A stretch of 39,527 bases of DNA from a virus, in the IMG/VR virus record IMGVR_UViG_3300037110_000054, positions 1 to 39,527 of that record; one strand, 5' to 3'. The notes under the pieces are model-generated. The model was not told where the DNA came from and searched no databases. It was given only the letters and a program-made list of their open reading frames with translations. Position 1 is the stretch's first letter; every line of letters starts with the position of its first letter. Of this stretch, positions 618 through 38,828 are shown in pieces. Position numbers and translations under genes: made by a program.

Positions 618-3600
618 TTATTGTCCTGTTTCTACTGGTTTGGCGCTAATTTCTGCACCAATAATAGCCAAATTAATAGGATCGGAACAAGTTATTCGCC
701 ATATTCTATCTCTGTCCATCCCCAGCTTTCTCCATATACACCGCTGAAAACGAGAACCAATAGTACCTAATGGAACATTTCTTTCATTAGAATAAGTATA
801 ACCACCATCAGAAGAGTAAGAAAGATTAATCTGTGGATCAGTTCCTATATACTCATAAATTGGTGCTCCTTCCATATAGTTAAAGGAAGCAGTATACTCT
901 GTTGGATTTATTTGTGGGGCAGTTAATGTAAAAGTGCCAGTTATTATTGCTGCTGGTTGAATAGTCACTAAAGATGTATTTTGAACTTCAGCAAATGGAG
1001 GCTGTTCAAACACAAGAAGACCCTGATTTGGTGTATAAGATACATTGTCATATGCTACAATTCCAGATGTTTGAATTAATGGAAGAAGAGCAGCTTGTGG
1101 TCCTATTTGTGCTCCCCAAACTCCAACATAAGCACTCCCGTTTCCTATATAATTTGGAGATTGACCAGGAGTTATATAGGCATTACTTACATATTCTGGA
1201 TTAACTAAAGTGAGATATGCAGAAGGAGAGGAGGCAGGGGTAGAAGGTGATTGGAAGGAAGTATCACTTGAAGAGACAATTATTGGTGTTCCTGATAGTG
1301 TATATACAGAACCATTCTGATTTAATGTTCCTGATGTAATACTTTGAACAGTAACGCCTAATGATACTCCACCACTTAAAACAGTAGCTCCTATTGTTAT
1401 TTGTCCATAAATTGGAGCATATACAAGAGTCATTTGATTACCAGAAAATGAACAATTACATTGAGCACTTGTTATATTACCTGCCACACCTGTTTCTAAA
1501 TAGGAAAGGGAACAGCGATAAATTCCAGTAAAGGAGGGTATAGGAGTTATTACAGGAGTACAGTTCACATTTGATACAATTGTTCCATTATCCAAATTAA
1601 ATATAGCAGAAGCTGGTGTGGCCGTTTCTGCTCCCAACGTCATTTGTAGATATCTTTGAGTAGTTCTTACTGCTGTGATACTTTGAGATGCTTGATTAGT
1701 CACCCACCCAGGATAACAGGAATAAGTTGAGGCAGCAGCTCCAAGAGTTCCAGTTAATAATCCAGTAATAAGTTGGTTTGGTGTTGATAATGCTGGACAA
1801 TTAACTACATCACCAATAGCTAGTGTACCATTAGCAAAGGCTGTGTTTAATGTCATAGTAAAGGTAAATAGTGGAAAAGAGCCACCTTTAACAAAAGAAG
1901 CATTACCACCTGTTAAAGTGGTATTGGTAATAGTTCCTGGCTGATTTACAAGATTTACTGCTGAGTTATTAGAAGCATATACACTAAAATTGGTTGTTTG
2001 TCCTACACTTGCTGTATATGGGATAGAGGTTTGATGAGGATTAAATGTGATATCTTCTGTTAAATAAGAACCAGAAGGAGTTTGTGTATAATCAGGTGTC
2101 ATCCATTCTCCACCAATAGCTGAAACATTAGAAAGAGACCAGATAAGTCCAAAGTTTATACTGCTAGCACATAGATTCTGATTTTTATTTGGTGCTTGCT
2201 GTTGTAGATTATTTCCTCTCCAATCATTTAAGTATATACTACCTACTGCTGATGCGTTAAATATATTAGGAACTTGAAAATTTGTTTCTACACCATTACC
2301 AGTTCCTATATTTATAATAGAAGAAGTGAGAAGAGCAGAATTTATAGTGATAGTTCCATTATTATTTAGTGTATATGAGTTAGACCAATTAGAGGAAGAA
2401 GAAGTAGAATAAACAACGACAGAACCAGTTGGAATAGCTGGTAGTCCATCATTTCCAAGAAGTGTATATGTTGGGCCACTTCCACCCATTAAAACATTTG
2501 TAGCTGTTTGAAGTGTAGGAGTTCCAGTTCCTATCTGAATTGGATATCCTATTCCGTCTAAACCTACTCCTGGTTGAACATCTAATTGAAATTGAGAATA
2601 TATCACTCTCTTTAAGGCGCCACTGGAATGCGGACTTCTTCTTTCCCGTCTAATAGGAGTACCATTGAAGGTATAGTTATTTTGATCCAATGAATATATA
2701 TTTCCATTCTGAAAGTCACCACAAAGATGTATATTACCATATCCAGTAATGAAGGAATTTGTGTGAAATTGGACTAAATCACGAGAATATACCCCATTTG
2801 AGAAGAACGCCCTCTCATGCCATTGTTTGTGTCCAATATCATAACACCATGTAGTACTTGAACTAATGTTGTTAAGACAGTAGAAAGAGTGTCCACCTTG
2901 TTGATATGTCCATGCTATTGTTTGTGAGATGTCTGGAAGAGTTAATAGCCAAGTTTCTACGGCATGGTTTGATATTCGAAGTGCCCTATAACCAAAAGCC
3001 ATAGCAACTTCAGCATAGCCTCTATCATCGTTTGTAATCCATAATAGCTGTCCACCAATTTGAGCAACAGCCCAAGGAGCATTTGTACCATGAGGAGCTG
3101 TAGCACCTGGAATTTGCTGAAAGACATTAGTAGTTTGTCCTCCACCAGTATTTTGAAATACTGCCAAACTTCTATTACCCATTATCCATACAATATCATG
3201 GTCTGAGATAATTCGCTGTACAAAGTCATTATTAAGATTTACGTTAACAATATCTAAATCACTTATATTTTGTGGATCTGATGCAAAATAGCCACTAATA
3301 GAGAAGGGTTGTGAGAAGATGAAGAAACCATCCTGAAAAGTTATAAAGGAAGAACCGACATATCCTGTTCCACTATTCATTTGATATACATTAGTGGTTC
3401 CTTCTTGAAAAACATATCCAGTAGTTGAACCATCTACTACAACAACCTGATTGATAAGTCCAGTATTTAAGACACCTTGATAATAGTTTGGCACACCATC
3501 ACATATACTAACAAATCCTGTTGAAGTTGTGAGATATGCCAAGAGTGTATGAGTAAAGGAAAGAGTGCCCAAAGCAGAGACAGAAGGAGTTAACTGATAA

Positions 3601-3839
3601 AGACCATTACCAGCTACACAATATATATAATTATTAGCAGTATGCCATAAACCACGAATAGGAGATTGTGGAAGAGAGTGTAGTAAAGTAAGACCAGGAA
3701 CAGTAGTTAACATAGTAGGCTCGTTCTCCTTACCTACCATCATTTCATCTTGATCTGGAAATAAGTTGATACATCTCTGAGCATCATAATTCAGAGAGCG
3801 GAGAGCATATGTTGGACCTAATAAGTCTTTAAGCTTCAT
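618..3839 (-). CDS. P22 gp10-like tail hub/DNA stabilisation protein, enlarged
   Basis: It encodes 1073 residues, with AAGGAAAT just upstream of the start. The N-terminus (residues 1-60: LRSLNYDAQRCINLFPD, then TTVPGLTLLHSLP) and the following roughly 400 residues resemble the P22 gp10 family, which sits below gp4 in the tail machine and keeps packaged DNA in the head. P22 gp10 is about 470 residues, so this protein is more than twice as long. The extra C-terminal half is rich in Ser, Thr, Gly and Asn and holds at least two copies (about 660-715 and 800-855) of a short beta-rich motif found in other virion proteins here. The last 60 residues (SYSSDGGYTYSNERNVPLG, RIWRITCSDP) again look like a gp10-family C-terminus. 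The additions are therefore inserts, perhaps for surface attachment (inference). Confidence 0.7.
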   Translation of the reverse strand: MKLKDLLGPTYALRSLNYDAQRCINLFPDQDEMMVGKENEPTMLTTVPGLTLLHSLPQSPIRGLWHTANNYIYCVAGNGLYQLTPSVSALGTLSFTHTLLAYLTTSTGFVSICDGVPNYYQGVLNTGLINQVVVVDGSTTGYVFQEGTTNVYQMNSGTGYVGSSFITFQDGFFIFSQPFSISGYFASDPQNISDLDIVNVNLNNDFVQRIISDHDIVWIMGNRSLAVFQNTGGGQTTNVFQQIPGATAPHGTNAPWAVAQIGGQLLWITNDDRGYAEVAMAFGYRALRISNHAVETWLLTLPDISQTIAWTYQQGGHSFYCLNNISSSTTWCYDIGHKQWHERAFFSNGVYSRDLVQFHTNSFITGYGNIHLCGDFQNGNIYSLDQNNYTFNGTPIRRERRSPHSSGALKRVIYSQFQLDVQPGVGLDGIGYPIQIGTGTPTLQTATNVLMGGSGPTYTLLGNDGLPAIPTGSVVVYSTSSSSNWSNSYTLNNNGTITINSALLTSSIINIGTGNGVETNFQVPNIFNASAVGSIYLNDWRGNNLQQQAPNKNQNLCASSINFGLIWSLSNVSAIGGEWMTPDYTQTPSGSYLTEDITFNPHQTSIPYTASVGQTTNFSVYASNNSAVNLVNQPGTITNTTLTGGNASFVKGGSFPLFTFTMTLNTAFANGTLAIGDVVNCPALSTPNQLITGLLTGTLGAAASTYSCYPGWVTNQASQSITAVRTTQRYLQMTLGAETATPASAIFNLDNGTIVSNVNCTPVITPIPSFTGIYRCSLSYLETGVAGNITSAQCNCSFSGNQMTLVYAPIYGQITIGATVLSGGVSLGVTVQSITSGTLNQNGSVYTLSGTPIIVSSSDTSFQSPSTPASSPSAYLTLVNPEYVSNAYITPGQSPNYIGNGSAYVGVWGAQIGPQAALLPLIQTSGIVAYDNVSYTPNQGLLVFEQPPFAEVQNTSLVTIQPAAIITGTFTLTAPQINPTEYTASFNYMEGAPIYEYIGTDPQINLSYSSDGGYTYSNERNVPLGTIGSRFQRCIWRKLGMDRDRIWRITCSDPINLAIIGAEISAKPVETGQ

Positions 3840-3919: not shown

Positions 3920-6088
3920 TCAGGTGTGCTTCACGAGGAAGCGGGCGTAGCAGTTGGCAAGGCCGACGGTAGCTGCGCTGAACTGGGCCACCCGCGAGGA
4001 GTCGATGCCCAGCGCAGGGATGGGCGCACCGCTCGCGTTGATGAAGCCGCCTACCTCGGTCCAGCCCATGAAGGTATAGCCGGTGGGCGGTGTAACCACG
4101 GCGGTCCAGTAGACCCCGCCGGAAGGGACGAAACTGAAGTTCACGCTATATTCAGCCCAGCCATCGTAGAAGTCTCGGAAGAGATTAACCGCAGCCTGCG
4201 TGAAGGACGTGCCGGTGCCGGAGCCAAGCGCGATGCTGGGCGCGGCCATGGGGGAAACGCCGGGGTTGTCGAACCGAGCCATGTAGATATGGCTGTTGTT
4301 CTGGTAGACGTTCGCCCCAGGCGCAGTGAAGCCGTCGTTGAAGCCAAGGGCGCAGAAGCCCACGCAGCCATCGAACAGGGTGTTGGTGCCGCTGTTGGAG
4401 CAGGAACCGGTGGCGAAGAAGCCATTGACGGCCTTCAAGATCAGAGCACCCGTGCCGCGCAGGTTGCTGATGTTCACGTTCTGGAACATCCAGTTGGACA
4501 CCACCATGCTCACACCAGTAAATGCAGCGAGGCTCTGGCTCAGCCAGTAAGTTCCGGTACCCCCGGTACCCGTGGTGGAGCCGGTGCCATAGGCTGAAAT
4601 CGTGCATCCAGGAGGAATCCCAGGACTGATCAGCGTCTGCCCAGGGAGGATGGGATTAGTGGGGTAGTTCGGCGCGGAGGTCACGTTGATGGAGAACCCG
4701 CCTCCCGAGCAGACGATGGGCACGCTCTGCATGCCCGACACCGGGGTCACCTCGAGGCAGGAGCCATCATCAGAGATGGTGCCGGCATCACACTGGAGGT
4801 TGTTGATGAAGATGTTCTTGCGGGGAGAGAAGTTCGTGTTCGCAGGGTTCGCCACACCATCGAAGAACAGCACGCCCTGGCGCACATTGCCCATGGCCTT
4901 GCAATCCGTGAGCCACACGCCGTCAATGCCAGAGCCCTCACCGTAGCCCTCAAAGTTGATGCCGGAGCTGAACAGCACCCCTCCCGTGGAATCGCCCAGA
5001 TGGCCATCGGACCAGGGGAAGGTGGTGACGTAGTTGGGCGAGGCCGAGTAGGAGCAGCCAGCCATGTTCTGGCCGTTGTTGCTGAAGTTGGATCCCTCGA
5101 TCACCAGATTGGTGAAGGAGTCGAAGTTGGCCCCGCAGCCGCGGTTGTTGGTGGACTGGAGGTTCTTGATCAGAATGTTATTGAAGGCGAAGGTGTTGTC
5201 GGTGATGGGGCTAGGGGGGCTCACCACGTTGGCCCAGTCGGAGAACATCTCGAACGCGTAGCCGGCGCAGTTGGTGACGGTGCAGTCGATAACCTGCAGG
5301 TCGGATACCTGGCCCAGGATGCGCATGCCGCAACGACCGCCATCCTCAGCGGGGCCAAGGATATTGGTCTGGTTGGCCCGGTTGCCGTCCACGTAGATGT
5401 TCGTGAGCCGGATGTTCGTCTTGGGCGAAGCCAGGCCGCTGATGGTGATGGGCGAAACGAAGTCAGTGGACCCGGCCTTGGTCTTCAAATTGAAGTCGCG
5501 CATGGAGAAGTTGGACGGGAGGAACAGACTGGTTACGGTGTAGGTCAGGCCATTGCCGGTCAGCTCCCGGCCCGAAGGCGTGGCGTTTATTGCAGCCTGC
5601 AGAGCCGTGGTGTCATCACCCAGCCCGTAGGGTCCGAAATCTGCAGCTGACACCGTTTCGGCTAGTTTAGCCTCTAGCAATCGCCCCGCGGCCCCAGTGT
5701 AGGGAGCGAGATATCCAACTAACGATGAGCCCTGCCCTGCGGCGGTGGAGGCCAATTCAGCTAATACAGTATTTGAAGCAATGGTAGATGTAGTAGTTGA
5801 AATAGATTGTAAATTATCAACTGGGTAATCAGGATGTTGAACATTATTTATATCAGTCACATTAATTTTGTATGTTTGTGGCCCTAACCATATTTGAGCC
5901 TTTCCATATTGATCTAAAATAACGGGATTTGTATTAGGAACAGTTAAAGTAGCATCTGTATAAGTGGCAAGAGGAGTTAGAGTTCCAGCTTGATATGTAT
6001 ATACATGACCTCCTGCTAATGGATTATTATTAGTATCAGTCTCAAAGAAGAGAGGAGATGTTATGAGAGAAGCGGTAGAATTTGACAT
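3920..6088 (-). CDS. Tailspike with phage head-binding domain and GC-rich beta-helix body
   Basis: It encodes 722 residues; AAGGAAT precedes the ATG. Residues 1-95 (PLAGGHVYTYQAGTLTPLAT, NPVILDQYGKAQIWLGP) form a head-binding domain of the P22-tailspike type and are clearly paralogous to the start of the next gene upstream. Residues about 145-720 have an AADFGPYGLGDDTTALQAAI entry motif and Asn/Gly-rich repeats typical of right-handed beta-helix, pectate-lyase-like spikes. Such spikes often bind or cleave surface polysaccharide. Base composition changes abruptly near 5,690-5,760 (residues 112-133): the anchor is AT-rich like the phage and the body is strongly GC-rich. The gene is therefore a fusion of a resident anchor with a recently acquired receptor-binding body. 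A beta-rich insert lies near residues 460-530. The enzymatic activity and substrate cannot be read from the sequence. Confidence 0.8.
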   Translation of the reverse strand: MSNSTASLITSPLFFETDTNNNPLAGGHVYTYQAGTLTPLATYTDATLTVPNTNPVILDQYGKAQIWLGPQTYKINVTDINNVQHPDYPVDNLQSISTTTSTIASNTVLAELASTAAGQGSSLVGYLAPYTGAAGRLLEAKLAETVSAADFGPYGLGDDTTALQAAINATPSGRELTGNGLTYTVTSLFLPSNFSMRDFNLKTKAGSTDFVSPITISGLASPKTNIRLTNIYVDGNRANQTNILGPAEDGGRCGMRILGQVSDLQVIDCTVTNCAGYAFEMFSDWANVVSPPSPITDNTFAFNNILIKNLQSTNNRGCGANFDSFTNLVIEGSNFSNNGQNMAGCSYSASPNYVTTFPWSDGHLGDSTGGVLFSSGINFEGYGEGSGIDGVWLTDCKAMGNVRQGVLFFDGVANPANTNFSPRKNIFINNLQCDAGTISDDGSCLEVTPVSGMQSVPIVCSGGGFSINVTSAPNYPTNPILPGQTLISPGIPPGCTISAYGTGSTTGTGGTGTYWLSQSLAAFTGVSMVVSNWMFQNVNISNLRGTGALILKAVNGFFATGSCSNSGTNTLFDGCVGFCALGFNDGFTAPGANVYQNNSHIYMARFDNPGVSPMAAPSIALGSGTGTSFTQAAVNLFRDFYDGWAEYSVNFSFVPSGGVYWTAVVTPPTGYTFMGWTEVGGFINASGAPIPALGIDSSRVAQFSAATVGLANCYARFLVKHT

Positions 6089-9760: not shown

Positions 9761-10018
9761 TTATAGTCCTTTTTTGCTTAATCTTATTTTTGCTTTTAAC
9801 AGTTCTATTAGAGCATCTTTTTCAATTATTTCTTGTTCAAGTTTTATTTTATTCTTTTTTAACAAAACACATTCTGGACATTTTTTGCTCAATTCCTCTT
9901 CTGTCCATTTGCTGTCCTTCCAATCATCTTTATCTCTAATTCCGTCTAACAGTTCTTGAGAGGGACATATAAACACCTCTCCATTTTTCTTATACATCCA
10001 TTTAGGAAAGTCTAACAT
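9761..10018 (-). CDS. Small protein with CxxC and coiled coil (85 aa)
   Basis: It encodes 85 residues; GAGG lies nine bases before the start. The start (FPKWMYKKNG, then a negatively charged stretch) resembles short phage proteins of the FPKWMYH type found among capsid genes. A CPEC pair lies near residue 48, and residues 52-80 are a Lys/Glu/Leu-rich coiled coil. It is preceded by a GTTATAATATA promoter motif and a hairpin, so it may be transcribed separately from the capsid genes. The function is unknown; a virion or assembly role is inferred from position. Confidence 0.6.
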   Translation of the reverse strand: MLDFPKWMYKKNGEVFICPSQELLDGIRDKDDWKDSKWTEEELSKKCPECVLLKKNKIKLEQEIIEKDALIELLKAKIRLSKKGL

Positions 10019-10032
10019 TTAAACCTCATATT

Positions 10033-10043
10033 TATATTATAAC
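10033..10043 (-). promoter_or_regulatory. GTTATAATATA promoter motif (extended -10)
   Basis: On the minus strand this reads TTGTTATAATATA, which contains TG-T-TATAAT, a sigma70 extended -10. It ends 15 bases before the start of the 85-aa gene. The same 11-mer occurs at six other sites in the genome, always ahead of leftward genes. No convincing -35 box is present. Confidence 0.6.
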
Positions 10044-12202: not shown

Positions 12203-13147
12203 TTAGTACTCACTAAATCCAAAATTTTTAACATTGACAGTAGAAGTGCTTGTGCTAGTTTTAACAGATTTAAGAGGAGGAGGTAGCGGCTTCTTACTAC
12301 TTATATTTTCTTTCTTGTCCTTACTTGTTCCTTCACTCATATTTTCTATCCTTGCTTCAAGCTTTCCAATATGTTTAGCGGTCTTTACTGGGTCCATTTT
12401 TGCTATCTCAATTGCTTCATCTGAATTGGCTAACAGATAATACAATAGTTCACCCGAAACGTCTGATTCCATCATTAGTTTAATTGTAGTTGGATTAGCC
12501 GTCATGATACCCGATGCAACTCTTTCTGCATCCATATCTAATAGTTCCTTAGTATCTGGATATTTGTTTATTATTTCTTGAACCGTTTTTTGGAAATTTT
12601 TCTGTTTTTCTTGTCTATCCCGTAAAAATAATTTAACATCAACTTTATAGTCAATATCATTTTCACCTTGAGGATATTTAGCAAAGTCATAGGGACTAGG
12701 AGCTTCTGGATCAATTAGTACTTCTTGTCGTATGGCCTGTTGCTGTTGTTTATTGAATAGTTCTTGTGCTCTTAACTGCTCTTTTAACCTATTCTTTTCT
12801 CTAACAACTGCCTGTACTCTTAGTTCCGCATTTGTATCACGCTTATTCTTGCTGTCTTTATTACTTTTTTTGTCTTTTTCAGAAGTAGAAGCTTCTTTCT
12901 CTGCCTCTTCTTCTTCTTTCTCTTCTTCTTCTTTCTCTACTTCTACTTCTTTCTCTTCTTCTTCTTTCTCTACTTCATTCTCAGTAGTAGCATTTTCCTC
13001 GGATTCTGCTTCCATATTTTCAGTTTGTTTAGGTTTTTCTACTGACTTTTCTATTGGCTTTTCTACTATTTCTTCCTCTGTCTTACCTTTTCGTAGTACT
13101 TCTTCAAGATTTCCTATTCCAAAGGCTACATCTTTGCTATCTGGCAT
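12203..13147 (-). CDS. Scaffolding protein, P22 gp8 type
   Basis: It encodes 314 residues, close to P22 scaffold (303). It has a highly charged, low-complexity N-terminal half: residues about 55-105 are Glu/Lys repeats with EKEEEE blocks. The second half is helical (DYKVDVKLFLRDRQEKQKNF, DTKELLDMDAERVASGIM) and there is a basic C-terminal region of the type that contacts coat in P22. The gene lies between portal and coat, as in P22. Its position, size and composition support the call more than any short signature does. A GTTATAATATA motif lies about 100 bases upstream. Confidence 0.75.
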   Translation of the reverse strand: MPDSKDVAFGIGNLEEVLRKGKTEEEIVEKPIEKSVEKPKQTENMEAESEENATTENEVEKEEEEKEVEVEKEEEEKEEEEAEKEASTSEKDKKSNKDSKNKRDTNAELRVQAVVREKNRLKEQLRAQELFNKQQQQAIRQEVLIDPEAPSPYDFAKYPQGENDIDYKVDVKLFLRDRQEKQKNFQKTVQEIINKYPDTKELLDMDAERVASGIMTANPTTIKLMMESDVSGELLYYLLANSDEAIEIAKMDPVKTAKHIGKLEARIENMSEGTSKDKKENISSKKPLPPPLKSVKTSTSTSTVNVKNFGFSEY

Positions 13148-13248
13148 ATTCTTTTCCTATTTCTTTCTCATGATAATTGAAAGGTATCAAGTCCTTATAG
13201 CATGAAGTTTTTAGAGTTTCAAGAACTCTTACTAATTTCTTTATACTA

Positions 13249-13259
13249 TATATTATAAC
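13249..13259 (-). promoter_or_regulatory. GTTATAATATA promoter motif upstream of scaffold
   Basis: The minus strand reads TTGTTATAATATA, again with TG one base before TATAAT. It lies between the portal stop and the scaffold start, about 100 bases ahead of the latter. This leader is longer than at the other sites, and a small GAGTT/AACTC hairpin lies between the motif and the gene. Confidence 0.55.
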
Positions 13260-13273
13260 AAGTATAAAAATGA

Positions 13274-15439
13274 TTAAGAGGGCTGTGTTGTAGCAGAATC
13301 AGAAGATGGAACTTGAGCTGCTTGAGCTGCTTGAGCTGCCTGAGTAGCCATATCCAGTGTTGCCTGATGAGTTGCCATATTTTTTCCAAGTAAATGTTTA
13401 TGAATTTCTTTGACTATTTCATGTGTAGTGTCATTTTTTATTCTTTCTTCTAATATCTCAGCTTTAAGAACCTCCAAACTTGCCTCATGTGATAACTCTT
13501 TCTGCTGTTTAATAAGTGCTGTACTATTTTCTAATTGTGCTATCTTTAACTTTGTTGCTTCCTTATCAGCAAGTTGGGTCTCTTGTTGTAAGGTTTGTGT
13601 AAGTTGTTGTATCATTTGGTGAGATTGTTCTAATTGTTGCTGTAAAACTTGAGGATTTGGCTTTTTAGTGTCTTGTAATTGTGGAGGAAGCATTTTTTCT
13701 AGTCTTTCTTTAATGTCCTCACTTTCTGGGAAATCCATTAATCCTACTATCTTATCCATGACAAATTGCATAGTTTGAGGAGCGTGTTGCGTCAGCTCTA
13801 CAAGGAATGACATATTTTCCTGTCGTCTTGTAGCAAAGGATGGACCAGAAGAGACCACTACATCATATTCTCCAACGGTTATGTCATAAACTTCTCTAAC
13901 ACCCTCTTCTGTCATATCATTTTGGTCTTCTTCACTATCAGCATCAGGAGAACCATTAATCGTAACCAGTTTATGCTTATCATCCAACCCAATAATACGA
14001 ACAACCTCTGCTTCTGTATATACTTTTCTGATTAAATCCAATAGTTGCATACCAAGAACGGATATAGCACGACTTAAATTGTCACTGAAATTATAATGAG
14101 CTACATTTCCAGCCTGTTGTAGAGCTTTAATAGCAACTCCACTCTGGTCATTAGCCATTTTCTCGCCTAATGTTGGGTCATATATAGCATTAGACGCTTT
14201 AATATCATTCTCTAAGACTTGTAGAGCCGCCAACATACCCTGAATTGGTGGTTCTGCTGTTATTCTTTGAGGAGCAGGTAGAAATTCACCTGGACCCATA
14301 CCCTCCAACTTTACATTATAGGGTAAGTAAGGCAAGTCTAATTCGTTTACATTTGCCCAGTAATCTTTAAATTCCTCAATAGCCCCAGCAGGAACTATCC
14401 ATGGGTTATTTGGACTACGAGCAATTTGTTTCAGTATATTGGTCTGAATTGTATTGACCATTATCTGACTTTCTTTTACATTATGAACTAAACCTGAAAA
14501 CTTACGAGTGCCATTATCTAGAAGAACATCACCAAAAACAGGAATTATAGGCACATCCTTACCTGCCCATTCTGTCTGTTCTAAGATTTCTGCTGGCAAT
14601 TCAGTTCCACATGCTAGTTTATACCACTTTACTACTGGCTTCTGACATTCTCGCTTAGCCTCAATCTGTTTCAACTCACGAGCAGAACACTCATCTTCTT
14701 TCTTAACCCTTCCATTTTTTAATTTAACCAGATTATATTTTTCATATTCCTTAACAAAGTATTCACAAACTACGGTAGTTTTCTTGTCATTGTCAAACCA
14801 TTCTGGAAACTTTGACGCAATAGGATACCACTCATTATGTGAGAGAAGGGAGAGAGAAGAGTGCGGAAACTCTTGCTTAAAGGCATCATAAGTCATACAC
14901 TCCAAGATAAAAGCATACTCTATATCACTCCCATCAACTGATTTAAAAGAAGGGTCAATGTATACCATAAAAGGATTGGGTATGGCTTCTATCTTAATCC
15001 TTTGTTTAAAGGAATCCTCTTCATACTCTAAATTGAGACGAATAAAACCAATACCACCCTGAACAGCAAATTCATAAGCAGTATCATAAGCCAGATTTGC
15101 CTTACTTTGTGTTTCTATGTGCCGAATTAAGCCCTGTAAAACATTGGCAACTTTAACATCAGCCTCACCATTAACAGGAGAAACAAGTACAGCAGGTCTA
15201 TTATCCCTTTGCTGATTGACAATTGATTTAACCTGCGCATTTATTCTATCAGAAGCTATTGTTGGAGAACCTACACTATCATTCTTAACATCGTCTGGCC
15301 ACTGATTATCACTATTCAAGAAGGAAATGTCAGAAATAGACTTCTCATAGTTATTCTTCCAGGAATCTACAGCCTTCTTAAAACGCTCCTTAACACCATC
15401 TAGGAAGGGCATTTCATTCATCATGGCATCTTTTGGCAT
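13274..15439 (-). CDS. Portal protein, P22 gp1 type
   Basis: It encodes 721 residues, against 725 in P22 portal; GAGG precedes the start. The N-terminus (LDGVKERFKKAVDSWKNNYE, SDNQWPDD) and the residue 70-130 block (NQQRDNRPAVLVSPVNGEAD, YDTAYEFAVQGGIGFIRL) are characteristic of the P22-type portal family. It forms the twelve-fold ring at one capsid vertex through which terminase packages DNA and to which the gp4-like protein binds. The C-terminal 120 residues are Gln-rich and coiled-coil (QQQLEQSHQMIQQLTQTLQQ), comparable to the long helical barrel of P22 portal. An Ala/Gln repeat (AAQAAQAAQ) lies near the end. Confidence 0.9.
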   Translation of the reverse strand: MPKDAMMNEMPFLDGVKERFKKAVDSWKNNYEKSISDISFLNSDNQWPDDVKNDSVGSPTIASDRINAQVKSIVNQQRDNRPAVLVSPVNGEADVKVANVLQGLIRHIETQSKANLAYDTAYEFAVQGGIGFIRLNLEYEEDSFKQRIKIEAIPNPFMVYIDPSFKSVDGSDIEYAFILECMTYDAFKQEFPHSSLSLLSHNEWYPIASKFPEWFDNDKKTTVVCEYFVKEYEKYNLVKLKNGRVKKEDECSARELKQIEAKRECQKPVVKWYKLACGTELPAEILEQTEWAGKDVPIIPVFGDVLLDNGTRKFSGLVHNVKESQIMVNTIQTNILKQIARSPNNPWIVPAGAIEEFKDYWANVNELDLPYLPYNVKLEGMGPGEFLPAPQRITAEPPIQGMLAALQVLENDIKASNAIYDPTLGEKMANDQSGVAIKALQQAGNVAHYNFSDNLSRAISVLGMQLLDLIRKVYTEAEVVRIIGLDDKHKLVTINGSPDADSEEDQNDMTEEGVREVYDITVGEYDVVVSSGPSFATRRQENMSFLVELTQHAPQTMQFVMDKIVGLMDFPESEDIKERLEKMLPPQLQDTKKPNPQVLQQQLEQSHQMIQQLTQTLQQETQLADKEATKLKIAQLENSTALIKQQKELSHEASLEVLKAEILEERIKNDTTHEIVKEIHKHLLGKNMATHQATLDMATQAAQAAQAAQVPSSDSATTQPS

Positions 15440-15459: not shown

Positions 15460-15470
15460 TATATTATAAC
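15460..15470 (-). promoter_or_regulatory. GTTATAATATA promoter motif upstream of portal
   Basis: The 11-mer lies 20 bases before the portal start and after the TerL stop. Here the base pair ahead of TTATAAT is CG rather than TG. No clear -35 box. Confidence 0.55.
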
Positions 15471-17399: not shown

Positions 17400-17726
17400 C
17401 TATATGCTCGTTTCGTCGTCATTATCATTATTAATCTTGATAACCTTATCATAGTCTAATCTTTTGGTAGTAGACTCAACAAAGGTAATTGATAGGCTTG
17501 GGAGTCCACTATCACTATTAGATACTACTTGGGATTGCATTATCTTACCAATTAATGTCATAAATGCTACGGGATTAGCCTCAGCTTGTTTCTCAAAGTA
17601 TTTTACTCCACCTTTGCGAGCTAAAGCCTCTTGTATCATTTGTTTAACATTGGTAGTTAGTTTATTTGTGCTTCCTTTTGGGCGGCCCGGCCCCGGTTTA
17701 CCTATTATATTATTACCATTTTCCAT
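17400..17726 (-). CDS. Terminase small subunit
   Basis: It encodes 108 residues; AAGGAAAT precedes the ATG. The N-terminal KPGPGRPKGSTNKLTTNVKQ (AT-hook-like GRPKG, then the start of a helix) and the following EALARKGGVKYFEKQAEANP, FMTLIGKIMQSQV are typical of a group of small terminases found just ahead of large-terminase genes in podoviruses. It recognises viral DNA and recruits TerL for packaging. The acidic, Asn-rich tail (NNDNDDE) is probably disordered. A GTTATAATATA motif 28 bases upstream may start the late transcript here. Confidence 0.75.
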   Translation of the reverse strand: MENGNNIIGKPGPGRPKGSTNKLTTNVKQMIQEALARKGGVKYFEKQAEANPVAFMTLIGKIMQSQVVSNSDSGLPSLSITFVESTTKRLDYDKVIKINNDNDDETSI

Positions 17727-17729
17727 TTT

Positions 17730-17927
17730 TTATTTCCTTAATGATACTTCAATATATATTATAACAAATAGCAGTATAAGCCAATAATAGTCCAGGTGTG
17801 TATTTTTAACTACAATGATGTGGTAAAATTGCCACACCTTCTTTCTTCTTATGCCATATACACATTCCTTGTAAAAAAGAGGCATTTTCGTGTTTCCTTC
17901 GATTAATAAGTGTAGTATTCTTGCCAA
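17730..17927 (-). CDS. Doubtful small ORF upstream of small terminase (65 aa)
   Basis: An open frame of 65 codons ends four bases before the TerS start. The N-terminal half is basic (YGIRRKKVWQFYH) and the C-terminal half hydrophobic (YYWLILLFVIIYIEV). A GTTATAATATA motif and the TerS ribosome-binding site lie inside or at the end of it, and it has no good Shine-Dalgarno of its own, though an internal ATG at residue 15 follows GAAGGA. It may be a chance frame over a promoter region. Confidence 0.25.
   Translation of the reverse strand: MARILHLLIEGNTKMPLFYKECVYGIRRKKVWQFYHIIVVKNTHLDYYWLILLFVIIYIEVSLRK
17755..17765 (-). promoter_or_regulatory. GTTATAATATA promoter motif upstream of small terminase
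   Basis: The minus strand reads TTTGTTATAATATA with the TG of an extended -10. It lies 28 bases before the TerS ATG, so a transcript would begin just before the ribosome-binding site. It is the first such motif of the packaging-capsid block. Confidence 0.65.
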
Positions 17928-23733: not shown

Positions 23734-23976
23734 CTAGTCCTTTAAGCTATGATTTCCATGTCCGTTTGCTGCTGCTTCTCTCCTTCTATCCAACTCATTA
23801 GCAAAATCAGCAGCATTTTCACCAGCTATCCAGATAAAGGACGGGCAGCATGGTTGTTTCTTAAAGGAAAGTGAATGACACTCTGGACATTCTATTAATT
23901 CATCAGCACCAAAAGCTTCTAATCTATCTATTTCTATCAAATTACAGGCAGTACACCTTCTATCATATAAGCTCAT
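23734..23976 (-). CDS. FmdB-like zinc-ribbon protein (80 aa)
   Basis: It encodes 80 residues; GAGAGGAAAT precedes the ATG and lies within the end of the sigma-like gene. The start MSLYDRRCTACNLIEIDRLE with CxxC, then CPECH near 31-35 and FKKQPC, is the layout of FmdB-type regulatory zinc ribbons seen in many phages. It may modulate transcription, which would fit its pairing with the sigma-like gene just upstream (gap of one base), but this role is inferred. Confidence 0.65.
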   Translation of the reverse strand: MSLYDRRCTACNLIEIDRLEAFGADELIECPECHSLSFKKQPCCPSFIWIAGENAADFANELDRRREAAANGHGNHSLKD

Positions 23977-23977
23977 T

Positions 23978-24376
23978 TTATTTCCTCTCTTCTCTTTCTT
24001 CTCTTTCTTCTCTTTCTACTTCTCTCTCTTCTCTTTCTACTTCTTCTATCGTATATTTTAGTCGAGAATTAGTGGGATCTATGAAGCTAAGTTGAACAGT
24101 TCTACTAAGCCAATTCTTATTGTCCCTAATGTAATTCAAAGTATATCCTATGAAATAATTTGTAATCCAGGTTTTCATGGTTGTTCCTTTTCCTGCCTCA
24201 TAAGAACGAACAGCCTTTAAAAGAGCGAGCTGAAGTGTTGAAAATAAGTCATCATAATCTATATTGAATTTCTTATTATACTTTATCTTAGTATGTAGAA
24301 TATGGGTGTCTATCATTGGCAGATACTTCTTTATTACTTCTTCCTCATTATCTATTGGTACACTATATTTGTTCAT
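23978..24376 (-). CDS. Minimal sigma70-family-like protein (region 2 only)
   Basis: It encodes 132 residues; AGAGGAAAGG precedes the ATG. Residues 41-85 (YDDLFSTLQLALLKAVRSYE, MKTWITNYFIGYTLNYIRD) match the sequence pattern of sigma70 region 2: the DL...L..A.......G segment that binds the RNA polymerase clamp helices, then aromatic helices that contact -10 DNA. No region 3 or 4 is present. The last 22 residues are an Arg/Glu repeat from a microsatellite. Phage sigmas reduced this way (T4 gp55 is the known case) direct polymerase to late promoters having only a -10-like box. It may serve the GTTATAATATA sites seen here. The gene overlaps the RusA-like gene by 14 bases. Confidence 0.65.
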   Translation of the reverse strand: MNKYSVPIDNEEEVIKKYLPMIDTHILHTKIKYNKKFNIDYDDLFSTLQLALLKAVRSYEAGKGTTMKTWITNYFIGYTLNYIRDNKNWLSRTVQLSFIDPTNSRLKYTIEEVEREEREVEREEREEREERK

Positions 24377-24845
24377 GCCTTTCCTCTATTTCTTTATATA
24401 CCTGTAGCTCTACTCTCACTTTTATCTCATTGCTCTCTTTCTTAAGGGCCTCTATATGATAAATCTGTTTGTCATTCAGAGTAGGGAGAGAATGAAGATT
24501 GCACCACTCATTTATGCTATTAAAAATTAAGTCTGTCTCATTTTTAAGAAGATTGTCTAAATCGCTGCTCTTAATATCGCCCTTCTTTGTTTTCCAGGGT
24601 CGAAACATTTCTATTCTTATTGAGAGAGGACGGTTAATACAGGAAGCAAGAAAGGGAGAAAGAAAAAGAATATCCTGAGCTTCTAAGGTTAGTATTACCT
24701 CTTCTTTTCCATATTTTAAGAAGTGGTTTGTAGCATGAGAATTTACTTTACGGCCATGGGAAATGTAAGTCATGCTATTAACGCTTACCGGCTGTTCAGA
24801 ATGCTCTATTATTAGTATTTTTTCAGTACTCATTTCCTTACTCAT
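24363..24845 (-). CDS. RusA-like Holliday junction resolvase
   Basis: It encodes 160 residues; GAGG lies seven bases before the ATG. The segment at residues 72-130 (RPLSIRIEMFRPWKTKKGDI, SSDLDNLLKNETDLIFNSIN, then LNDKQIYHIEALKK) has the RusA pattern: a beta strand, then an Asp-x-Asp-Asn-Leu-x-Lys motif, a helix, and a second acidic site near the D of NDKQI. RusA enzymes cut four-way DNA junctions, and in phages they resolve recombination or replication intermediates before packaging. It sits in an operon with the sigma-like and DUF3326-like genes. Length is in the usual range, with an N-terminal extension of about 45 residues. Confidence 0.7.
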   Translation of the reverse strand: MSKEMSTEKILIIEHSEQPVSVNSMTYISHGRKVNSHATNHFLKYGKEEVILTLEAQDILFLSPFLASCINRPLSIRIEMFRPWKTKKGDIKSSDLDNLLKNETDLIFNSINEWCNLHSLPTLNDKQIYHIEALKKESNEIKVRVELQVYKEIEERHEQI

Positions 24846-24855
24846 TTCCTGGCCT

Positions 24856-25866
24856 CTAATCTAACCTAATAGTCTCATAACATATACCTTCATTTAAACA
24901 CTGTATATATCCTACTGCCTCTAAATAAGAAGAAACGTATACAACCCTCTTATCGTTTGTAGGATTTATTCTTTCCATACTCTTACTTGTATTTTCTCTA
25001 ACCATTATGATAGGTATATTGTTTTTCAGGCAAAGATTATGTGGAGTTGACCAGCACATAGGAGAAACTAGGAAGGAGATATCTGAAACAGAGAGAGAAG
25101 TAGGGAGAGAAGAAAGAGTAGGATGAATAATGGTGGGTGCTTTATGTGCACCAGAAAAGATGCAGTTTGCGTAGGTATTACTTAAAATTTCTGGTGCTTG
25201 TTGTAATCTCACTATCATACTATCATAATAAGTGTTAAAGGTGCTTTCACAGGGAGCATGAAAGCATTGTTTATTCAATTTCCTACTGACATAAGAAGAT
25301 AGGAGCTGCTCTACCTTGCCCCATGGATTTTCGTAAAGTGTTCCAGACCAGTATGATGCAGCTACTTCTTCTGGACAAGAGATGTAGGAATGAACACATA
25401 GCTGATCGTATTCTAAGTATCTAATCTGGTCTATCATTTCATCTGCACCTTCTATTTTTCCAGAAGGGAGACCATCAGCACCTATAAAGGCTTCCATTTT
25501 AAGTGGGGTATTCAATTCTACTATTTCAATATCGGCACCTAACATCCACCTACTAGCATTAACTGCATTTATATTAGCAGGAGAGACTGGTTTATTTACA
25601 GCGCAAAGAATCTTATTGTGAGTTCTACATTCTTTCAACCTTATTTCACCATAAAGAAAGCGATCAATAGTGCTTCCTTCAACGTATACTGTATTTTCAA
25701 CACCAGCATAAAAGTCAGAGGCATTACAGCCGTTTGGATTTACAATTAAAGAGGCAGAAACAGAAGATAGAAGCCGTATATAAGCACCAGCACTGGCATC
25801 TCCTGAACACTTTAGCCCTATCCCAGTTGGAAAGATACAAATTCCGTTTAACTTGTTTCCTAGCAT
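24856..25866 (-). CDS. DUF3326-like protein (336 aa)
   Basis: The start at 25866 is chosen for AAAAGGA six bases ahead; a weaker start lies 11 codons upstream. The layout matches what I know of DUF3326 proteins: IFPTGIGLKCSGDASAGAYI at the start, then LIVNPNGCNASDFYAGVENT and VYVEGSTIDRFLYGEIRL, a middle CFHAPCES, then FSGAHKAP, and near the end NIPIIMVRENTS and VVYVSSYLEAVGYIQCLNEG. The family is of unknown function and better known from cellular genomes. The repeated small-residue loops look like a ligand-binding enzyme fold. Composition is AT-rich like the phage, so it is not a recent arrival. It is the second gene of the leftward 26.5-23.7 kb operon. Confidence 0.6.
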   Translation of the reverse strand: MLGNKLNGICIFPTGIGLKCSGDASAGAYIRLLSSVSASLIVNPNGCNASDFYAGVENTVYVEGSTIDRFLYGEIRLKECRTHNKILCAVNKPVSPANINAVNASRWMLGADIEIVELNTPLKMEAFIGADGLPSGKIEGADEMIDQIRYLEYDQLCVHSYISCPEEVAASYWSGTLYENPWGKVEQLLSSYVSRKLNKQCFHAPCESTFNTYYDSMIVRLQQAPEILSNTYANCIFSGAHKAPTIIHPTLSSLPTSLSVSDISFLVSPMCWSTPHNLCLKNNIPIIMVRENTSKSMERINPTNDKRVVYVSSYLEAVGYIQCLNEGICYETIRLD

Positions 25867-26093
25867 ATTGTCCTTTTCTTCCTTCTTTACTTTCTTCATT
25901 CTATCTTCTTAACCTACTCTTTATGGATGTCATCACTATCGTTCTTCCATCCACTTTAATTTATATTTATTTACTTTCTTTCTTCTTACTTGTTTTGTAT
26001 AACCCATATTCACTCTTCTGTTTGTAAATAAGGTCTCCCCCTACAAACTAAATAAAAAGAAAAATTCTTTCTACTTAATTTAAGGGAGAGACT
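25867..26093. other. AT-rich spacer upstream of the DUF3326-like gene
   Basis: No convincing gene. A minus-strand 23-codon basic frame (MGYTKQVRRKKVNKYKLKW) ends near 25946 but has a poor ribosome-binding site. GGATG/CCATCC near 25925-25955 can form a weak hairpin. Confidence 0.4.
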
Positions 26094-26339
26094 TTGTCGT
26101 TTCACTCTTTCGTAGTAAACAACGCTCCCACGATGGCCGGGATGACTCAGGTTGCACATCGATTTGTATTCAAGGTTCTTATTTGTATTGCTTTTGTATT
26201 GCCACCGTATCAATCAGCAACTTGGATTGCGTCTTGCGTAGGCTTAGTTGCGTTTTATCTCGCAGGGTATCTCAATGTCTGTTGCTCTTACTTACTACTT
26301 ACTACTTACTACTTAATCCTCTTTACGAGGATTGGTTGA
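26094..26339 (+). CDS. Possible rightward membrane protein with TTG start (81 aa)
   Basis: A TTG at 26094 follows GGGAG by six bases; in-frame ATGs occur at residues 14 and 17. The product has two hydrophobic segments (VFKVLICIAFVLP and ATWIASCVGLVAFYLAGYL). The stretch 26090-26290 is richer in GC than its surroundings. It would run against the leftward operon and overlap the end of the 72-aa gene by 31 bases. It could be a small acquired gene or a chance frame. Confidence 0.35.
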   Translation: MSFHSFVVNNAPTMAGMTQVAHRFVFKVLICIAFVLPPYQSATWIASCVGLVAFYLAGYLNVCCSYLLLTTYYLILFTRIG

Positions 26340-26527
26340 ACCTTCTTTATAAGGATCGGAGTTAGAGACCTTTCAGTAAGTCTCGCTTCATCTTCTTTTA
26401 CATTTTGAAGATGTCTAATTGTGGCTAATTCTTCTTTCAGTCTGTTGTTTTTCATTCGGTTTCTGCTATCTGCTAACTCTTTTGCTGTTAAACTTTGTTG
26501 TGCTGTATGGCTCCATATTTGCCCCAT
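26309..26527 (-). CDS. Small charged helical protein (72 aa)
   Basis: It encodes 72 residues; GGAG lies seven bases before the ATG, and a GTTATAATATA motif lies 25 bases upstream. It is rich in Lys, Arg, Glu and Leu, largely helical (AKELADSRNRMKNNRLKEEL), with a basic C-terminus. The last codons contain a perfect AATCCTC/GAGGATT hairpin. The family is not recognised. As the first gene of the leftward operon that contains the sigma-like gene, it may be an early DNA-binding or regulatory protein (inference). Confidence 0.6.
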   Translation of the reverse strand: MGQIWSHTAQQSLTAKELADSRNRMKNNRLKEELATIRHLQNVKEDEARLTERSLTPILIKKVQPILVKRIK

Positions 26528-26551: not shown

Positions 26552-26562
26552 TATATTATAAC
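26552..26562 (-). promoter_or_regulatory. GTTATAATATA promoter motif of the 26.5-23.7 kb operon
   Basis: The minus strand reads GATGTTATAATATA with a TG extended -10. It lies 25 bases before the 72-aa gene in the divergent region facing the rightward operon. Because this operon encodes the sigma-like protein, the same motif would serve both the sigma-like gene and late genes. Confidence 0.65.
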
Positions 26563-26691: not shown

Positions 26692-27189
26692 ATGACCAAG
26701 ATTTGTAAGAAATGCCTAAAAGAACTGGACGATAAGAAGTTCGGAAAGGGTAGAGCAGTTTGTAATCACTGTCTTAACATCCAAAGAGGTCTTATTAACA
26801 CACCATCTAACACAGTTAACACACCATCTAACACAGTTAACACACCATCTAACACAGTTAACACACCATCTAACACAGTTAACACACCATCTAACACAGT
26901 TAACACACCTATTCATAGAATTATTGTCGTATCATCAGAAGAAGCTGAAAAGGAAGTGCCTGTTTGTCCATATCCTAATCTATCCGAATTAGAAGCAGCT
27001 ATCTCTTTCAATAAGAAGCTTGTTCAGTCATATCTTGATGACAATGATACAAAGGGCGCAAAGCAATATGTCCAGAAAGTGACTGAGTTAAAGGCGATGA
27101 GGATACAATTTAAGGGAAATGAAACAATTGAATACGCATTTACTGATTCTTTTTGGGAAGGATTGAGGAAGTTTAATGAACAAAAATAA
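26692..27189 (+). CDS. Zinc-ribbon protein with heptapeptide repeats (165 aa)
   Basis: It encodes 165 residues; GAGGAGAAAG precedes the ATG. Residues 1-30 carry two Cys pairs (CKKC at 5-8 and CNHC near 24-27), a small zinc ribbon. Residues 36-70 are five NTPSNTV heptads from a perfect 21-bp DNA repeat. The rest is helical (LSELEAAISFNKKLVQSYLD). The repeat is probably a flexible linker between the zinc ribbon and the C-terminal domain. It is the first gene of the rightward operon. A TATAAT at 26651-26656 may be its -10 box, without a clear -35. The function is unknown. Confidence 0.65.
   Translation: MTKICKKCLKELDDKKFGKGRAVCNHCLNIQRGLINTPSNTVNTPSNTVNTPSNTVNTPSNTVNTPSNTVNTPIHRIIVVSSEEAEKEVPVCPYPNLSELEAAISFNKKLVQSYLDDNDTKGAKQYVQKVTELKAMRIQFKGNETIEYAFTDSFWEGLRKFNEQK
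26797..26910 (+). repeat. Five perfect 21-bp tandem repeats
   Basis: The unit AACACACCATCTAACACAGT plus T is repeated five times to 26901 and then partly. The copies are identical, so the expansion is recent. The unit length is a multiple of three, so copy-number change keeps the frame. Confidence 0.95.
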
Positions 27190-31895: not shown

Positions 31896-32048
31896 TTATA
31901 GCTTTTTTACATCCTTACTTATATCATCTATTGTACTCTTGGCTTCCACTACCTCTGACTCTATTTTGGCACCATTCTTTCGATAGATTAAGATGCCTCC
32001 TACTACCAGGGCAACGGCTGCTATTGCTAATACTATAAACTCTAACAT
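31896..32048 (-). CDS. Single-span membrane miniprotein (50 aa)
   Basis: The ATG at 32048 follows AAGGAG, and a GTTATAATATA motif lies 21 bases upstream. Residues 1-20 (MLEFIVLAIAAVALVVGGIL) span the membrane and the rest is a charged helix. It is the first gene of the lysis cassette and may be a holin-like component. Confidence 0.65.
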   Translation of the reverse strand: MLEFIVLAIAAVALVVGGILIYRKNGAKIESEVVEAKSTIDDISKDVKKL

Positions 32049-32068: not shown

Positions 32069-32079
32069 TATATTATAAC
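32069..32079 (-). promoter_or_regulatory. GTTATAATATA promoter motif of the lysis cassette
   Basis: The 11-mer abuts the stop codon of the last ejection-block gene and lies 21 bases before the first lysis gene, giving the lysis cassette its own start site. The bases ahead are AG rather than TG. Confidence 0.6.
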
Positions 32080-37481: not shown

Positions 37482-38372
37482 TTACAGTAAAGCAAGAGCA
37501 GCTAACGCACCGTCACTCATCAATCCACCGGCTACACTATCACCTATTACAGCACCAGCACCTTCTTCAACTCCTAGACTGGCAATACTACCACCTAATC
37601 CCATACCAGCTAGTCCTCCATCACTCATCAAGGCACCAGCACCAGATATAGAGCCAACACCTTCAGAAGTACCAAATAAGCCAGATAAGCCACTAAACAT
37701 ACTAGATAATCCAGTTCCTATTCCACCATTTTGTAGAGCCAGAGCACCAGCAGCGCCTGTAGCCATTGAGTTAAAAGAACCCATTGTTCCAGCAGCCTGA
37801 GCATTTCCAGCACTCTGTAAGTAATTACCTTGAGCAGCACTTTGTCCAGCAGCAAGATTTCCCAAATTAGCTGTGGCATTTAATCCCTGTTGAGCACCAT
37901 TAGCAAATTGTGTATAATTTTGCTGTTGATTTGATGTATAATTTTGTAGTGCCTGTTGATAAGCATTTCCAGCATTTTGTTGAGCATATCCCATAGCAGC
38001 CTTTTGACCACCACCACTTAATGCACCACCACGAACAGACTGGGCATTACTTATAGCATTTAATCCCTGAGACATATTAAAAGCATAAGCAGGATTTTGC
38101 TGGAACTGGGTCTGAGAAAAAGGCGCATTAAGTGCTCCCTGTCCTACACCATTACCAAGACCACCCTGTAATTCTTGATATGCTTGTTGTCCACCCTGAA
38201 TATATGGATTATAATTAGCAGCTACTTGGTTGTATCTTTGATTAGATTGAGCCATAGCAGCTTGTTCTGCATTTAATTGAGCAGAAGCGGCTTTTGATGC
38301 AGCATTAGCACCAGTTATACCACCAACCACATCTCCTAAAGCATTTCCAACACTTGAAAATACATTACCCAT
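37482..38372 (-). CDS. DNA ejection protein (P22 gp7 position, 296 aa)
   Basis: It encodes 296 residues; AAAGGA precedes the ATG and a GTTATAATATA motif lies 18 bases upstream. The block at residues 90-185 (GLNAISNAQSVRGGALSGGG, QKAAMGYAQQNAGNAYQQAL, then NLGNLAAGQSA) is typical of podovirus DNA transfer proteins of the P22 gp7 kind, which leave the virion first and help form the channel. The C-terminal 90 residues are Gly/Ala-rich and hydrophobic (GLSSMFSGLSGLFGT), suited to membrane insertion. It is the first of three ejection genes in P22 order. Confidence 0.75.
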   Translation of the reverse strand: MGNVFSSVGNALGDVVGGITGANAASKAASAQLNAEQAAMAQSNQRYNQVAANYNPYIQGGQQAYQELQGGLGNGVGQGALNAPFSQTQFQQNPAYAFNMSQGLNAISNAQSVRGGALSGGGQKAAMGYAQQNAGNAYQQALQNYTSNQQQNYTQFANGAQQGLNATANLGNLAAGQSAAQGNYLQSAGNAQAAGTMGSFNSMATGAAGALALQNGGIGTGLSSMFSGLSGLFGTSEGVGSISGAGALMSDGGLAGMGLGGSIASLGVEEGAGAVIGDSVAGGLMSDGALAALALL

Positions 38373-38375
38373 TTC

Positions 38376-38828
38376 TTATTCCTTTACATATATATTATAA
38401 CTACTTACTCCGTGCTCTTTTCCGTTTTTTAGCCAGCCCTTTACTTCCTTCTTATATAATGTAAATCCAACGTTCTTTACTAGTCTTTGTGCTAATTCAT
38501 TATTATTTGCCACTGTTGCCCAAAGAGTGTGATACTTCGTTGTCTTTTTAATATACTTAATAACTCCCTTACATATTTCTATTGTTTTGCCATATGCTTC
38601 TGGAAAAAATGCTAAATGAAGATATAGATTTTTATTTTCTGTTGGTATTCCTATAATTACTCCCATCAATCTTTCATTCTCAAAGCATCCTATATATAAA
38701 TAAGAGAGGTTGTATGGAATTGATAAATCTCCATCATATAAATCATCACAAATCCATGGGAGATTGTTTGGCAGATGAAATATGAAGTTTACTAGTTCTA
38801 TATCATTTATTAGTTGATAGGTATACAT
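38376..38828 (-). CDS. GNAT-like protein (P22 gp14 position, 150 aa)
   Basis: The start at 38828 is chosen because the frame upstream overlaps the fibre gene and a purine-rich AGAAGAGAAG tract precedes this ATG. The 150 residues have a GNAT acetyltransferase-like layout: IGCFENERLMGVIIGIPTEN as strands, LYLHLAFFPEAYGKTIEICK as the acceptor strand and helix, ATVANNNELAQRLVKNVGFT as the C-terminal motif. P22 gp14 occupies the same place and belongs to a GNAT-like phage family (DUF2824) needed for virion infectivity. An enzyme activity is not established for that family. Confidence 0.7.
   Translation of the reverse strand: MYTYQLINDIELVNFIFHLPNNLPWICDDLYDGDLSIPYNLSYLYIGCFENERLMGVIIGIPTENKNLYLHLAFFPEAYGKTIEICKGVIKYIKKTTKYHTLWATVANNNELAQRLVKNVGFTLYKKEVKGWLKNGKEHGVSSYNIYVKE
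38391..38401 (-). promoter_or_regulatory. GTTATAATATA promoter motif of the ejection block
   Basis: The 11-mer lies 18 bases before the gp7-like gene and overlaps the end region of the GNAT-like gene. The bases ahead are AG. It would give the ejection genes their own transcript start. Confidence 0.6.

Follow-up and report, generated by a model that had tools for sequence, protein, structure and literature searches.

A sigma-70 region 2 protein and candidate -10-only late promoters in a P22-type phage genome

The virus record analysed here (IMGVR_UViG_3300037110_000054; the whole stretch of 39,527 nucleotides is referred to below as the window) repeats its first 129 bases at its end with one mismatch, and the 39.5-kb record is therefore probably a complete genome. 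The portal, coat and terminase are of the P22 type and lie far from those of known phages (the best identity for the portal is 37%); the P22-like character proposed in the original prediction is thus borne out by the capsid and portal genes. The host was not identified, since no relative of the coat protein was present in the prokaryote genome collection and no tRNA was found in the genome. Around a tail-spike-like gene (3920-6088) the GC content rises to about 57%, compared with 35-40% in the rest of the genome, which suggests that this region was recently acquired. A perfect 21-bp tandem repeat of 5.5 copies (26795-26909) is located within the open reading frame 26692-27189.

The open reading frame at 23978-24376 that was first singled out as sigma-like is present and encodes a product of 132 residues (P0001), but it lies on the minus strand, the plus strand being interrupted by stops over the same interval. 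Its assignment rests on open-reading-frame calls, family matches and homologues. Upstream, its start is overlapped by the end of a gene for a RusA-like Holliday junction resolvase (24363-24845, minus strand; Pfam RusA E-value of 5.2e-4, just under the cut-off, and PHROG_140 E-value of 0.0014), an order that is also kept in L005. Directly downstream, with a single base between the two genes, family matches identify an FmdB-type zinc-ribbon protein (23734-23976, minus strand). Two genes upstream of the sigma gene, the phage encodes a DUF3326 protein (24856-25899, minus strand; E-value of 4.7e-43).

Residues 39-87 of P0001 match the Pfam family Sigma70_r2 (PF04542) with 25.1 bits (E-value of 1.5e-5), above the curated cut-off of 24 bits. 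The FliA_WhiG model gives a longer match (residues 14-114, E-value of 4.5e-9), which spans only model positions 1-93 of 224 and scores 36.4 bits against 189.6. A PHROG sigma factor family is also matched (E-value of 3.9e-7), and the best sequence matches in the PDB are FliA structures (E-value of 4.7e-5). The predicted structure (mean pLDDT of 71, with residues 88 to 110 of low confidence) resembles region 2 of Pseudomonas aeruginosa sigma28, with a Z-score of 11.3 and an r.m.s.d. of 2.0 over 77 residues (model residues 8-87), and the top structure matches listed for it are sigma factors. The structure match and the Pfam match together place the region 2 codons at 24116-24355 (minus strand), confirming P0001 as a sigma-70 region 2 protein over approximately residues 8-87.

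No model match to region 4 was found in P0001 or anywhere in the genome at the sensitivity of Pfam, which at that sensitivity also rules out a region 4 hidden on a separate chain, and the body of region 3 was likewise not found in P0001 or in the genome. A short stretch following region 2 (residues 89-97, WLSRTVQLS) is similar to region 2.5/3.0 and resembles the beginning of FliA region 3.0. The original description of a protein with region 2 and nothing of regions 3 and 4 is consequently supported for region 2, by sequence and fold, and for region 4, which is undetected, but was slightly too strong for region 3. The two most distant homologues retain the R-x-V-Q-L pattern of this stretch, and L005 does not. 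The C-terminus is a charged tail (EREEREE...) encoded by a tandem repeat (23981-24048, minus strand). We infer that this tail is unlikely to carry the function of P0001, as it is a non-conserved repeat expansion that is absent from the homologues.

Related phages were gathered by searches with the terminase, portal and coat. When viral contigs were searched directly with P0001, with a two-sequence alignment or with the L005 homologue, just one homologue was obtained; the remaining homologues were reached via the coat gene, and phage GenBank records gave only weak sigma matches. The homologue in G004 (135 residues) shares 50% identity with P0001, and those in G013 (111 residues) and G014 (about 109 residues) were detected with E-values of about 1e-10 to 1e-11. 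Against Sigma70_r2 the homologues score 18.9-23.2 bits, just below the cut-off. The model of the G013 homologue (pLDDT of 81.6) has only sigma factors among its top matches and resembles region 2 of Escherichia coli sigma70 (Z-score of 11.7 over 88 residues). The two most distant homologues stop just after region 2 and, judged from these sequences, the family is single-domain. A region-2-only sigma is thus kept in four lineages (the window, G004, G013 and G014), and P0001 appears to be among the smallest sigma proteins described, with a single domain in about 110-135 residues.

The window contains seven exact copies of the -10-like element GTTATAATATA, all on the minus (late) strand, compared with a mean of 0.04 and a maximum of 2 in dinucleotide shuffles. 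Each is a candidate -10-only promoter. The copy at 38391-38401 precedes a late virion gene (37482-38372); sites are also found before its orthologue in G013, with one site in L018. The copy at 32069-32079 precedes a short open reading frame that starts at 32048, with the lysis region next, and that at 26552-26562 precedes 26309-26527, upstream of the block in which the sigma gene is located. The element at 17755-17765 lies before a terminase small subunit-like gene (17400-17726), and L020 has GTTATAATGTA at the equivalent position before the same gene. The remaining copies precede the portal gene (15460-15470, before 13274-15439), the scaffold gene (13249-13259, before 12203-13147) and the gene at 9761-10018 (10033-10043, right after a hairpin-like sequence). 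The distance from the end of the element to the start codon is 14-28 nucleotides in six of the seven cases and 101 nucleotides for the scaffold, a spacing that leaves space for a leader and a ribosome site. Some late genes of the window have no nearby site, such as the gp10-like gene at 618-3839.

The claim of a recurrent -10-like motif without -35 boxes ahead of late genes is upheld by these counts and by an alignment of 16 sites drawn from three lineages, the window and two relatives. The best match to a -35 signal in these sites (2.94 matches) is no better than that in shuffled upstream DNA (2.97 matches). Little information is present outside the element, and the information within it is inflated because the sites were selected by the element itself. 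All sites of the window, A and B lineages have G at the extended -10 position, and the T of TGn occurs in six of the 16 sites. A general sigma70 promoter scan gave no excess over shuffles and no convincing sigma70 promoter, and thus did not help to place early promoters.

The co-occurrence of protein and sites was followed in the window, A, B, G013 and G014 lineages, B being represented by a fragment (G002) that does not cover the sigma region, and in two comparison records without a detected sigma, G008 (37 kb) and the fragment G011. TATAAT precedes the portal gene in all five lineages (four with the sigma, plus G002) and the scaffold gene in all five, and the post-coat gene in four of five; before each of these genes it is absent from G008 and G011. 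In every comparison of orthologous sites, all six positions of the hexamer agree with the window, while the 40 nucleotides upstream are only 22-42% identical. In lineage A, a repeat expansion lies between the element and the portal gene. The bases flanking TATAAT differ in G013 and G014, where the sigma has diverged too. On the late strand of G013 (GC content of 54%) TATAAT occurs 13 times, compared with twice on the other strand; G008 has 14 and five copies, respectively, but not before the portal, scaffold or post-coat genes. Its terminase and portal genes nearly abut, and its scaffold leader is kept without the element. Both the sigma and the exact element are missing from four P22-like phages that are more distantly related. 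When TATAAT ahead of late genes was tallied over whole genomes with a crude gene caller, the signal was clear in the window and G013 and weak in AT-rich fragments; this tally was replaced by the ortholog-by-ortholog table summarized above.

The number of independent events behind this pattern is small. Coat and portal trees leave the branching of sigma-bearing and sigma-lacking lineages as an unresolved trichotomy and do not show whether the sigma-less lineage lost the system; the co-occurrence therefore counts few independent events (about three lineages). That no sigma was detected in G008 and G011 could be due to incompleteness of the contigs or to divergence of the sigma, and absence from fragments is weak evidence.

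Three further features were observed in these genomes. In L022 (2228-2264) the -10 element occurs in three tandem copies, 13 nucleotides apart, before the portal gene. In L041 (G008 contig positions 33575-34788) repeated TATAATACT sites occur within a single region at a distance from the late genes. The scaffold leader of the window (13148-13250, minus strand) contains a GAG..CTC hairpin followed by GGACTTGA(T/G)ACC..TCATG, an element that is conserved in seven of seven related phages, whether or not they have the sigma, and has no Rfam match. It is possibly a structured RNA and might be involved in scaffold autoregulation.

The computed evidence comprises the region 2 homology and fold, the lack of a detectable region 4, an enriched and positionally conserved motif without a -35 signal and the co-occurrence of protein and sites. 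We consider it likely that P0001 is a region 2 phage sigma that reads single -10-element late promoters with the host core RNA polymerase. P0001 would be seated through region 2 on the beta-prime clamp helices of the host core enzyme, and a single -10-type element would be recognized, GTTATAATATA in the window phage and other TATAAT-centred forms in its relatives; both the polymerase binding and the direct recognition of the motif are inferred. Without region 4, the protein would have no need of a -35 element. Separate late units could be started in this way, namely the terminase, the portal, the scaffold and coat, the post-coat genes, the ejection and tail genes and the lysis region, although late timing is also an inference. 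The element at 26552-26562, upstream of the sigma-containing block, hints at positive feedback, which again is only inferred. The proposal of a minimal late-transcription system built from this protein and these sites is accordingly strengthened by a sigma kept in four lineages and by sites that persist in diverged flanks and are absent where no sigma was detected, with polymerase binding and recognition remaining unproven.

The main rival to a phage-encoded reader is host sigma70. Sequence alone does not exclude it, because the TATAAT core is the host sigma70 -10 consensus, matched perfectly by the hexamer; with the preceding G, which is invariant in the window, A and B lineages, the sites fit (extended) -10 promoters, and there are no transcript data. 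The copies of GTTATAATATA would then be ordinary extended -10 promoters and P0001 a competitor or modulator at the sigma region 2 site of the polymerase. We regard this as unlikely: the T of TGn is not conserved, the flanking bases change in the very lineages (G013 and G014) in which the sigma has also diverged, and relatives in which no sigma was detected do not have the sites ahead of the corresponding genes. The site set as a whole also has no -35 signal, and a complete lack of -35 elements across a whole set of sigma70 promoters is unusual.

A different division of labour, in which the region 2 chain is one half of a two-piece factor and the FmdB-type zinc-ribbon protein replaces region 4 or gp33 at the beta flap or upstream DNA, would fit the position of the zinc-ribbon gene, which is found downstream of the sigma gene in all four sigma-bearing phages (the very next gene in three lineages, the next but one in G013), as well as the precedent of T4, in which gp33 binds the flap and assists gp55 (PMC7892883). 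Four records in which no sigma was detected (G008, G009, G010 and G011) also carry the zinc-ribbon gene, which therefore has a sigma-independent use; a partnership of this kind seems improbable to us. That P0001 is merely what is left of a once full-length sigma gene, decaying and without function, is suggested by little more than the repeat expansion in its tail and is scarcely credible, given that homologues at 25-60% identity in independent lineages keep an intact single-domain open reading frame and invariant residues.

The reading that we prefer, a region 2 phage sigma acting at single-element late promoters, has counterparts in other phages. T4 gp55 is a small phage sigma with region 2 and without region 4 that serves a short single-element late promoter at -10 (PMC2988020, PMC7892883) and has been called the smallest member of the sigma70 family (PMC2988020). 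The window shares with it the region 2 domain without region 4 and short -10-only late promoters (putative here, their activity untested), and gp55 (7d7c_F) is among the structure matches of the G013 homologue (Z-score of 10.2, r.m.s.d. of 4.3). The two differ in length (185 residues for gp55, 109-135 in the new family), and in the alignment the new family has no tail like the clamp-binding end of gp55 (SLDFLYEAND). The two most distant homologues, which stop where region 2 is complete, leave no space for the helix-loop-helix of gp55, and no sliding clamp or gp33 gene was recognized among the scanned genes. Homology to gp55 was not supported (hhalign probability below 1%), and the precedent originally invoked therefore holds as a functional analogy, with no homology found beyond the region 2 fold. 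The podophage sigma phiEco32 gp36 has likewise been reported as having no region 4 homology; it reads a single-element promoter (tAATGTAtA) located ahead of middle and late genes (PMC8948821). It is larger (214 residues), its promoter sequence is different and phiEco32 is an unrelated 77-kb podophage; a comparison with A1 gave no homology (hhalign probability below 1%), the region 2 signal being only weak.

By both sequence and fold, the family nearest to region 2 of P0001 is sigma28 (FliA/WhiG), from which P0001 differs in the lack of regions 3 and 4, in promoters without a -35 element and in its phage late-gene setting. The window's portal and coat proteins are distantly related to those of the P22 type. 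In Salmonella phage P22 the late genes are controlled by an antiterminator, whereas the window has its own sigma and multiple putative late promoters; no P22-like phage with a late sigma was found in the literature searched.

A stronger form of the proposal can be entertained only tentatively, and we think it rather less likely to be true than false: that P0001 exemplifies a natural, self-sufficient sigma consisting of region 2 alone (as short as about 110 residues), the smallest known, that works without region 4, a helix-loop-helix, a clamp or a coactivator and serves a P22-type phage at several late promoters of a single element each. More generally, the system would offer a minimal test case for what is required of a sigma in promoter opening, with one domain and an element of 6-11 bases, and would represent, beside T4 gp55 and phiEco32 gp36 and apparently independent of both, a third phage route to late transcription from -10-only promoters. 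The phage probably redirects the host RNA polymerase to its own late promoters, and virion modules of the P22 type could then be driven by a sigma switch rather than by antitermination.
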